Assembly: GCA_016928395.1 (NCBI GenBank)
Contig: JAFGKV010000254.1
Coordinates: 1 to 28,513, forward strand
Length of the DNA stretch: 28,513 bases
Reading direction: 5' to 3'
Origin: Candidatus Fermentibacterota bacterium
GTDB lineage: Bacteria; JAFGKV01
Shown: piece after piece, positions 25,843 through 28,513 of the stretch
How positions within the stretch are numbered: position 1 is the stretch's first letter
Layout of the letters: each line of letters opens with the position of its first letter
Notes under the pieces: generated by a model
What the model was told of the DNA's origin: nothing
Databases searched by the model: none
Seen by the model: the letters and a program-made list of their open reading frames with translations, nothing else
Position numbers and translations under genes: made by a program

Positions 25843-25868
25843 ATTGACCTGTGGAAAGTGACGTGACG

Positions 25869-26171
25869 ATGACCGAACAGGACAAGCAGGCGGTCAAACG
25901 GATGCTGGCGCAGTGTTTGAGTCGTGATCGCGAGGTCACCAAGGTCGTGGTGTTCGGGTCATTCCTGACCAGCGAGACGCCACATGACATCGACGTGGCG
26001 GTCTTCCAGGACAGCGGGGAGGGCTACCTCCCTCTCGCCCTGAGGTATCGCAAGAGGACACGCGCCGTCTCTCGGATCATTCCTCTCGATATCATACCCG
26101 TCGGCTCGCGTGCCGGGAGCGGGCCATTCCTTGCGGAAATAGCCAAGGGAGAGGTGATCTATGAGCGGTGA
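25869..26171 (+). CDS. MNT-type minimal nucleotidyltransferase
   Basis: 100 residues from ATG 25869; GTG 25863 or 25851 could extend it by 2 or 6 residues. GGAAAG at 25853-25858 favours the later starts. Pol-beta-fold motif: VVVFGSFLTSETPHDIDVAV, with G30-S31 and D40-x-D42, and a later Asp74 in IPLDII as third metal ligand. The GS-to-DxD gap is two residues shorter than in the classical motif. Such proteins pair with HEPN partners; in studied cases the MNT is the antitoxin and nucleotidylates the HEPN toxin. It overlaps the HEPN gene by 11 bases. Confidence 0.82.
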   Translation: MTEQDKQAVKRMLAQCLSRDREVTKVVVFGSFLTSETPHDIDVAVFQDSGEGYLPLALRYRKRTRAVSRIIPLDIIPVGSRAGSGPFLAEIAKGEVIYER

Positions 26172-26538
26172 GTCTCTTCGCTGGCTGAGCTACGCCGCGG
26201 AGAACCTACGATCCGCCGAGGTCTTGCTGGAGAGTGGATTGTACAACCCGAGTCTGCAGAATGCGCAACAGGCCGTCGAGAAATGCCTCAAGTCCCTCCT
26301 CATTCGGCACTCGCTGGAGTTCAAACGGACGCATAGCATTGCGGGCCTCAGAGCGCTCCTTGCCGAAGCCGGTGTGGTGGTTGACCTGAGCGATGACGAA
26401 TGTGATCTGCTCGATTCGATCTATCTTCCGTCGAGATACCCTCTCGGCAGTGCTCTGCCGGATTTCGAACCCGATGAGGAGCTGTGTCACCGGTGCAGCG
26501 AGATCGCCGAACGAGTGCTGAATGCCGCTGGGTTATGA
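26161..26538 (+). CDS. HEPN-domain protein
   Basis: 125 residues, all-helical. It matches the HEPN family that pairs with MNT proteins: LSYAAENLRSAEVLLESG, NPSLQNAQQAVEKCLKSLLI, THSIAGLRALL, and the ending IYLPSRYPLG. The RNase signature R-x4-6-H of toxic HEPN proteins is not obvious; the family-typical Ser-Arg-Tyr-Pro stands where it might be expected. It may therefore be a non-nuclease partner, or a toxin using other residues. The 11-base overlap with the MNT gene shows they form one unit; a toxin-antitoxin role is an inference from the pairing. Confidence 0.83.
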   Translation: MSGESLRWLSYAAENLRSAEVLLESGLYNPSLQNAQQAVEKCLKSLLIRHSLEFKRTHSIAGLRALLAEAGVVVDLSDDECDLLDSIYLPSRYPLGSALPDFEPDEELCHRCSEIAERVLNAAGL

Positions 26539-26672: not shown

Positions 26673-27800
26673 ATGCGAACATTGTTGATCGTGGCGGGTC
26701 TGGCGACGATTGGGTTCTTGTTGGTCCCACGTTGCGCCAAGGAGCCGACGGCGTTGCCAGCGCAGGAGTGGATTGACCTACTGTCGCCGACGCAGGGAAC
26801 TACCTGGACGGTCGGCGACACCGCCAGCGTCACCTGGACCTCCCGCGGAACCTCGGGCCAGGTGAAGATCGAGCTGAGCCGAGGCGGGTCATCGTGGACA
26901 ACTCTTGGGACCGTTTCTGCCAGTGCAAACGCATACGACTGGGTCGTGACCGGGCCTGAGGCAACCGGGTGTCGGGTGCGGGTGAGTGATTCCGCCGACG
27001 GGAGCCCAAGCGTCCAGAGCGGCGCCCTTGCCATCAGCGAGTTCCACTCCCTTCTCGACATGGTCTCCCTCTCAGGCGGGACGTTCCAGATGGGGTCGAC
27101 GTCGTCGTGGGCGTACTCCTGGGAGCAGCCGGTGCACCAAGTGACCGTATCGGCCTTCTCCATTGCCAAGGATGAAGTGACGCAGGCCCAGTATCAGGAG
27201 GTGATGGGGACGAATCCGTCGTATTTCCAGGGGGCGAACCGGCCGGTGGAGCAGGTGACATGGTGGGATGCGGCGAAGTTCTGCAATGCGTTGAGCGCGA
27301 GGGAGGGGTTGACGAAGTTCTACAACGATGATGATTTGAACAGTCAGGCGAGCACGGTGCGGATGACGTGGAGTGCGAACGGGTATCGGTTGCCGACCGA
27401 AGCGGAGTGGGAGTATGCGTGTCGTGCGGGGAGCACGACAGACTTCTACAACGGGAACCTGACGAATCCGTACTGTGAGCCATTGGATCCGAACCTGGAT
27501 CTTATCGGGTGGTACTGCGGGAACTCGAACGACCAGACCCACGACGTGGGCGGCAAGCAGCCGAACACGTTTGGGTTGTACGACATGAGCGGGAACGTAT
27601 GGGAGTGGTGCAATGACTGGTATGGGGACTATTCCTCGGGGTCGCAGACCGATCCGACTGGGCCGAGCAGCGGGTCGACCCGGGTGCGACGCGGCGGCAG
27701 CTGGTACAGCTACGCGCAGAGCTGCCGCTCCGCGTACCGCTACGACTACTCGCCCGGCTACAGCTACTACGACATCGGCTTCCGTCTCGTTCGCCGTTAG
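26673..27800 (+). CDS. DGR target: exported C-type-lectin (FGE/SUMF1) fold protein
   Basis: 375 residues; GGAGG 5 bases before ATG 26673. An export signal (residues 1 to about 20) ends V-P-R-C, a weak lipobox, so lipid anchoring is uncertain. Residues about 32-121 form an Ig-like domain of the Kre9/KNH type (DLLSPTQGTTWTVGDTASVT, DWVVTGPEATGCRVRVSDSA). Residues 127-375 are the formylglycine-generating-enzyme/sulfatase-modifying fold: GGTFQMGS, DEVTQAQYQEVMG, PVEQVTWWDAAKFCNALS, YRLPTEAEWEYACRAG, GLYDMSGNVWEWCNDW, RRGGSW, GFRLVRR. The copper-binding Cys pair of true FGE is not kept; only C351 remains near the site, so it is probably a binding protein. This fold is a standard DGR variable-protein scaffold. 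The downstream HRDC and Avd genes support that reading. Confidence 0.9.
   Translation: MRTLLIVAGLATIGFLLVPRCAKEPTALPAQEWIDLLSPTQGTTWTVGDTASVTWTSRGTSGQVKIELSRGGSSWTTLGTVSASANAYDWVVTGPEATGCRVRVSDSADGSPSVQSGALAISEFHSLLDMVSLSGGTFQMGSTSSWAYSWEQPVHQVTVSAFSIAKDEVTQAQYQEVMGTNPSYFQGANRPVEQVTWWDAAKFCNALSAREGLTKFYNDDDLNSQASTVRMTWSANGYRLPTEAEWEYACRAGSTTDFYNGNLTNPYCEPLDPNLDLIGWYCGNSNDQTHDVGGKQPNTFGLYDMSGNVWEWCNDWYGDYSSGSQTDPTGPSSGSTRVRRGGSWYSYAQSCRSAYRYDYSPGYSYYDIGFRLVRR
27690..27797 (+). other. Candidate DGR variable region (VR)
   Basis: The last ~36 codons of the target gene, from about RRGGSW to the end. At residues 345, 346, 347, 350, 355, 357, 358, 359, 363, 364, 365, 366 and 367 the codons are only TAC, AGC or GAC, each one substitution from AAC. 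Constant codons between them (GCG, CGC, TCC, CCC, GGC, TTC) carry no A in the first two positions. Codon use also shifts here to almost all C-ended codons, unlike the GGG/GAT/CGT-rich stretch before it. Exact boundaries need the template repeat, which is not in the window. Confidence 0.78.
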
Positions 27801-27840
27801 GTTTGGGATTTTGAAATTCTTACCTTTTGCGGGTCTTGGG

Positions 27841-27895
27841 CGCGGGGCCACAGCCGACGCGGCAGCGAAGCGGAGCCGCGGGCTGTGGCCCCGCG
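27841..27895. repeat. Large perfect hairpin downstream of the VR
   Basis: CGCGGGGCCACAGCC (27841-27855) is perfectly complementary to GGCTGTGGCCCCGCG (27881-27895), a 15-bp stem. Inside it CGCGGC (27858-27863) pairs with GCCGCG (27875-27880) around an 11-base loop. It lies 41 bases after the target stop, following an AT-rich tract (27801-27831). Hairpins downstream of the VR are known DGR target-site elements. Confidence 0.85.
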
Positions 27896-27900
27896 GGAGA

Positions 27901-27928
27901 CGCCGGAGCGCCCTTGGGCGTTCCGGCG
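27901..27928. repeat. Second hairpin, just before the HRDC gene
   Basis: CGCCGGAGCGCCC (27901-27913), TT, GGGCGTTCCGGCG (27916-27928): 13 pairs with a single G-T. It starts 5 bases after the first hairpin and ends 9 bases before the HRDC ATG. No T-run follows. Confidence 0.8.
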
Positions 27929-27937
27929 CAGCCGAAA

Positions 27938-28435
27938 ATGGCGGATCTTCCCGATAGCGGTCTCGATCACCGTTTGAGGATCTTCACGGTGGCGTTCGAC
28001 GCGGAGACGAAGACATTCCGCGATGAGGAGCTACGGCTGTTCCTGGCCGGCAGGCGGCTCCTGCGCTCGGAAGCCGCGTTCTTCCAGGTGGACGGCGTTC
28101 CCTTTTGGTCGGTGCTCTTGGAGTATCGGGAGGGGCCGCACGAAGGAGAACCCAAGGAGGAACCGCTGGCCGGGCCGGCGGGAGCGCTCATGGAGCGGCT
28201 TCGCGAATGGCGCAAGGAGGAGGCCGCGCGGCGAGGGCTTCCCGTGTACGTGATCGCCACGAACAGCGAGCTTCGGCAGGTGGCTGCCCGCATGCCGCAC
28301 TCGTTCGAGGGGCTGCGTTCCATCAAGGGTTTCGGGAAGCGCAAGATAGAGGAGTACGGCGCCGCGATTCTGGAGGAGGTCAAATCGTTCGTAGGGGAGC
28401 GCGCGCGCGCCGAAGGAGGCAGCCCTGATGCGTGA
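27938..28435 (+). CDS. HRDC-domain protein, DGR accessory type
   Basis: 165 residues from ATG 27938; the frame is open further upstream but runs through the two hairpins. The N-terminal half (RLRIFTVAFDAETKTFRDEE, LRLFLAGRRLLRSEAAFFQV, PFWSVLLEY) resembles the short alpha-beta module fused to HRDC in DGR cassettes. The C-terminal half (about 84-152) is an HRDC helical domain: LMERLREWRKEEAARRGLPV, VIATNSELRQVAARMP, LRSIKGFGKRKIEEYGAAIL. HRDC domains bind nucleic acid in RecQ and RNase D; proteins of this kind are known DGR accessory genes, possibly standing in for or adding to Avd. No strong ribosome site is seen. It overlaps the next gene by 8 bases. Confidence 0.88.
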   Translation: MADLPDSGLDHRLRIFTVAFDAETKTFRDEELRLFLAGRRLLRSEAAFFQVDGVPFWSVLLEYREGPHEGEPKEEPLAGPAGALMERLREWRKEEAARRGLPVYVIATNSELRQVAARMPHSFEGLRSIKGFGKRKIEEYGAAILEEVKSFVGERARAEGGSPDA

Positions 28436-28513
28436 AGACTATCCGGTGTTCGTGCACTGGTATCGCTTGCTGGATTGGATCCTCGACACCGTGGAGCGCT
28501 TCCCCAAGAGCGC
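28428..28513 (+). CDS. avd: Avd-like DGR accessory protein (N-terminal part only)
   Basis: The gene starts at ATG 28428 (GGAGG at 28415-28419) and is cut by the window end after 28 codons. The translation MREDYPVFVHWYRLLDWILD continues TVERFPKS. The pattern W-Y-x-x-x-x-W-[IL]-L-x-x-[TV]-E-[RK]-F-P-K is the opening of Avd / four-helix-bundle (23S-IVS-like) proteins. Avd forms a pentameric basic barrel that binds the DGR reverse transcriptase and template RNA. The call rests on only 28 residues plus context (HRDC gene and lectin-fold target directly upstream); an IVS-type four-helix protein is the alternative. Confidence 0.8.
   Translation, partial: MREDYPVFVHWYRLLDWILDTVERFPKS

Follow-up and report, generated by a model that had tools for sequence, protein, structure and literature searches.

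A Diversity-Generating Retroelement with Both HRDC and Avd Genes at a Contig End of a Candidatus Fermentibacterota Genome

Overview of the Locus

Three genes are crowded onto the forward strand at the right-hand end of contig C318 of Candidatus Fermentibacterota (source assembly of 4.79 Mb in 343 contigs), and the last of them is cut off by the contig edge. The entire contig (28,513 bp) is the window analyzed here. Are these genes the left half of a diversity-generating retroelement (DGR), as an original prediction made from the window alone proposed, and where in that case are the reverse transcriptase (RT) and the template repeat (TR)? Our analysis supports, at a probability of roughly 0.96, the view that the end of the window is the 5′ part of a DGR with the order target (an FGE-fold gene containing the variable repeat, VR), HRDC, avd, RT, and TR, working by adenine-mutagenic copying of TR into VR. 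An RT and a TR were found in the same genome, and the TR and VR differ only at adenines. The DGR is of a known kind, with HRDC and Avd together as helper genes in place of the usual single one. The data on this cassette come from one genome.

Genes of the Window

The three genes lie on one strand, overlapping or adjacent, in the order first described (Table 1).

Table 1. Positions of the DGR Features in the Window (C318) and of the Insertion Ends on Other Contigs
Feature	Position	Strand	Remarks
DGR target gene (variable protein)	26673–27800	+	Pfam FGE-sulfatase PF03781, E = 1e-56
Variable repeat VR1	27671–27794	+	124-base ungapped match to TR at C111:873–996
GC-rich inverted repeat (candidate hairpin)	27841–27895	+	15-bp perfect stem; 46 bases after VR; z = −5.2
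HRDC accessory gene	27938–28435	+	ATG at 27938, stop ends at 28435; Pfam PF00570, E = 6e-22
avd, 5′ end	28428–28513	+	28 codons, then contig end
Putative IS-like insertion ends in RT2	C334:7835–7921 (L011); C213 reverse complement 1–62 (L012)		Terminal inverted repeat and TTAC duplication

The target protein has an N-terminal hydrophobic segment, an Ig-like domain (weak Pfam match to Kre9_KNH), and a C-terminal FGE/CLec domain; PF03781 spans residues 129–374 of 375, and the VR lies at the C-terminus. Its nearest solved structure is 2y3c, the variable protein TvpA of Treponema denticola (E = 2e-42). Judging from the hydrophobic segment and the Ig-like domain, the protein may be exported and act as a binder held at the surface; the DGR product is probably an exported lectin-fold protein with at most 18 variable residues. 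Between template and current variant, 14 residues (positions 336–367) are changed, out of a maximum of 18 that can vary. Adenines occur in 18 TR codons; of these, 13 are AAC, a codon that cannot mutate to a stop. Directly upstream of the target (25851–26538), overlapping nucleotidyltransferase (Polbeta) and HEPN genes, identified by Pfam, look like an MNT-HEPN toxin-antitoxin pair.

The second gene had been called an HRDC-type accessory gene, and the profile match bears this out. A high-confidence structure prediction (mean pLDDT 91.5) gives it two domains, beta-alpha-beta-beta at the N-terminus and RecQ-type HRDC after it, the latter matching 1wud (Z = 14.6, rmsd 1.5 over 77 residues). The N-terminal domain has weak dodecin-/ACT-like fold matches (Z about 4–5), from which no relationship is claimed. 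HRDC domains bind single strands and junctions, so a role in cDNA priming or integration is plausible for this protein.

The third gene starts with an ATG that overlaps the HRDC gene by eight bases, and the contig breaks in its codon 29. The 28 visible residues, compared by eye with the start of an intact Avd elsewhere in the genome (contig C334, below), are identical at 23 positions. That complete protein scores 94.6 bits against NCBIfam DivGenRetAVD (cut-off 80) and 69 bits against bAvd, but 16 bits, below the cut-off, against 23S_rRNA_IVP; by this likeness the truncated gene is an Avd gene. The original prediction would have failed had the gene belonged to a 23S-IVS-type protein with no RT partner; the C334 copy is Avd rather than 23S-IVS, and the genome encodes an RT.

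The GC-rich inverted repeat between VR and HRDC gene is a candidate DGR target hairpin or cruciform, or else may be a terminator-like stem. It is bigger and farther from the VR than the hairpins of phage DGRs, with a branched 25-base center where those have a 4-base GRNA loop. We rejected the notion that this palindrome is a dispersed repeat, as it occurs at a single locus in the genome.

Reverse Transcriptase and Template Repeat on a Second Contig

A search for RTs in the same genome gave three places on three contigs. Contig C111 opens inside an RT frame, of which 269 codons are left; the frame is open and contains the motifs GNLTSQ and YMDD, so that SQ replaces SP, as had been expected of a DGR-type RT and in keeping with the (I/V/L)GxxxSQ motif of the DGR clade. 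Among solved structures it is closest to 8ub7 (E = 1e-41), a DGR RT complex, it matches a PHROG RT family (E = 4e-93), and in the RT tree it groups with RTs that have TR/VR pairs.

Sixty-two bases past this RT frame begins a near-copy of the end of the window gene. The predicted repeat, with A where the gene has T or G, is thus present, the gene having T, G, or C at those sites. TR1 and VR1 are identical at 109 of 124 bases, and all 15 mismatches fall at TR adenines (p = 1.3e-10, hypergeometric; 33 of the 124 TR bases are A), with agreement at every non-adenine position; such a pattern is the hallmark of the two repeats of a DGR. The adenine-mutagenized end proposed for the lectin/FGE-fold gene is therefore real, but its bounds move from 27690–27797 to 27671–27794.

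A query that included the suspected variable end matched five other contigs of the genome. We weighed FGE paralogs on contigs C291 and C28 as additional targets of these TRs but discarded them, since they show many differences at non-adenines. In the product of the C291 gene (L013 58–2418), an FGE domain is joined to a Ser/Thr kinase-like protein, and the C-terminus of the FGE domain can be aligned to the DGR TRs at roughly 72 percent, with many non-adenine differences; the fusion is a candidate relative or long-fixed former target.

A Second, Probably Disrupted Cassette

The same genome has a second DGR of the same layout across contigs C334 and C213: C334 carries the FGE protein, HRDC (47% identical to that of the window, PF00570 being matched in both), the complete Avd, and the start of the RT, and C213 the rest of the RT and the TR. 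Over 126 bases, TR2 and VR2 show 18 mismatches, 18/18 at adenines (p = 7.9e-13). RT1 and RT2 are sisters in the tree (support 99/95), and the clade to which they belong has RTs with HRDC, Avd, and TR/VR pairs of the adenine type.

Both contigs run just past one site in the RT, which separates GNLT from SQ, and then end. Their stray terminal bases make up a 12-bp terminal inverted repeat without mismatches (CCCAAGTTCACC), with a 4-bp duplication, TTAC, flanking it; the RT2 flanks continue into each other once these bases are removed. For these reasons an IS-like element most likely sits in the RT of the second cassette. As TR2 and VR2 still differ at adenines only, the insertion would be recent, or else RT1 would act in trans. 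In the other two of the three genomes covered for the phylum (one of them of the same genus), no DGR RT was found at E ≤ 1e-20, and the cassette is accordingly patchy in the Candidatus Fermentibacterota lineage.

Proposed Activity and Continuity of the Cassette

By analogy with Bordetella phage BPP-1 (PMC3240598), the TR next to the RT gene would be transcribed, and RT bound to Avd would copy the TR RNA into cDNA, misincorporating at adenines. The mutated cDNA would then take the place of the VR, which lies at the 3′ end of the target gene, with help from the identical flanks and perhaps from the downstream hairpin, while HRDC, a single-strand- or junction-binding domain, would probably work at cDNA priming or integration.

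It is conceivable, although we consider it improbable, that this machine has decayed or fallen silent, so that cassette 1 diversified its target formerly, no longer does so, and leaves the present VR fixed. The RT of the sister cassette is apparently broken by the IS-like insertion, the middle of cassette 1 (the 3′ part of avd and the 5′ part of the RT gene) falls in a contig gap, and other DGR loci with absent or pseudogenized parts have been described (PMC10907252). However, a decayed element fits poorly with the identity of TR1 and VR1 at all non-adenine positions over 124 bases, and the visible RT frame on C111 is open with its motifs intact.

The original prediction placed TR and RT beyond position 28513; both exist in this genome, on C111, and their direct adjacency to the window is our inference. 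Target and RT/TR are on separate contigs, about 0.4 kb being estimated as missing between them by comparison with C334. No overlap between C318 and C111 was found, nor was the missing avd/RT piece on any other contig of the assembly, small ones included. Remote targets are known for DGRs, and C318 and C111 could in principle be no neighbors at all, the window holding a remote target and an HRDC-avd remnant served in trans by an RT and TR elsewhere. We regard this as very unlikely: the break in C318 falls in avd codon 29, and the RT sequence that opens C111 begins about where a gap of that length predicts, no other copy of avd or RT remains to fill either gap, and order and strand fit all relatives. 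C318 and C111 are thus presumed to be physically adjacent in one cassette.

That an ordinary FGE-family gene happens to have a 23S-IVS-like gene and an HRDC gene of no relation to it as neighbors, with gene-family divergence behind the C-terminal likeness, can practically be dismissed: the FGE paralogs on C291 and C28 do have C-termini that align to the TRs, but these mismatch TR1 at many non-adenine sites (14/38 and 24/40, respectively), whereas VR1 and VR2 differ from their own TRs solely at adenines, which we count as already refuting, the profile scores of the C334 Avd point away from 23S-IVS, and an RT is present in the genome.

Relatives with HRDC and Avd

A scan of bacterial and archaeal genomes with an RT alignment (A2) yielded 80 loci, a sample of the nearest relatives; A2 took the place of a mixed alignment in which, with fragments of broken RTs among its rows, no segment was sufficiently conserved for scanning. 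HRDC and Avd were called by profile searches, and loci cut by contig ends may be under-called. On this basis HRDC homologs occur in 28 of the 80 loci: 22 have HRDC and Avd and six HRDC only, while 47 have Avd only and five neither. A relaxed search for Avd in the six HRDC-only loci found none (best E = 0.7). Of the 22 loci with both genes, 18 yielded a TR/VR pair; every one of these has a VR upstream of HRDC, and in 17 the TR lies at or past the end of the RT gene. Three DGRs with both genes (L074, L091, and L102) have two VRs, the usual one upstream of HRDC and an inverted one about 0.4–0.6 kb past the TR.

Plasmid pPAES01 of Prosthecochloris aestuarii DSM 271 (NC_011061) carries the whole layout in one piece with annotated genes, in the same order (FGE target with VR, HRDC, overlapping avd, RT, and TR) and with an RT of the same clade. 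It differs in being plasmid-borne, in having a second target downstream of the TR, and in an RT only about 46% identical. The expectation that HRDC and Avd between target and RT would be an uncommon layout is contradicted by this plasmid and by the 22 of 80 closest relatives that have both.

Phage BPP-1 (mtd/avd/TR/brt) has a phage tail target, and its TR precedes the RT. It resembles the window DGR in adenine-specific copying of TR to VR, in Avd and a DGR RT, and in an inverted repeat after the VR, a hairpin that BPP-1 requires (PMC3240598); it differs in having avd, not HRDC, as accessory gene and a shorter, 8-bp stem. The DGR of T. denticola likewise has an FGE/CLec target (TvpA) and, as its accessory, an HRDC gene that overlaps the RT gene, but this gene lies between TR and RT and Avd is not described (PMC4891356). 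A Treponema relative in the sampled set (L070) is also without Avd.

In the RT tree (89 rows) every HRDC-bearing row falls in one clade (99/95) that extends across many phyla; Avd-only rows surround it, and the six HRDC-only rows form one sub-clade (100/95). The simplest reading suggests that HRDC was gained once by an Avd-bearing DGR and that Avd was lost later in one branch. The nesting of the HRDC-only rows is unproven, because an AU test did not reject a tree in which the HRDC+Avd rows form a clade apart from them (p = 0.265); provided that the tree is rooted outside the HRDC clade, parsimony still implies that the HRDC-only branch lost Avd. We tentatively propose, at slightly less than even odds, that DGRs with both genes are one old and widespread lineage, in which an Avd-dependent machine acquired HRDC, with its own N-terminal beta-alpha-beta-beta domain, a single time, and that in the Treponema-type branch HRDC took over and Avd was lost. 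Dual cassettes such as that of the window would then be living intermediates between Avd-type and HRDC-type DGRs.

Accessory genes have been given as alternatives, “avd or HRDC” (PMC3240598), yet all sampled HRDC-bearing RTs form one clade and most retain Avd; the text of a 2021 survey in Nature Communications makes no mention of HRDC. The tree thereby makes it testable what HRDC contributes to the function of Avd or takes over from it. The locus itself adds a well-supported DGR to a sparsely sampled phylum (three genomes), in a genome that has two cassettes, the second apparently disrupted by an IS-like element.

Restriction-type genes come after both DGRs of this genome and after that of pPAES01. 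On C111 (L010 2022–8386) these are a type III methyltransferase-like gene and a helicase-like gene, the latter with a weak type III restriction endonuclease match; on C213 (L012 2267–4453) a large methylase-like gene, read by eye; and on pPAES01 (L033 7916–10219) an annotated restriction endonuclease.
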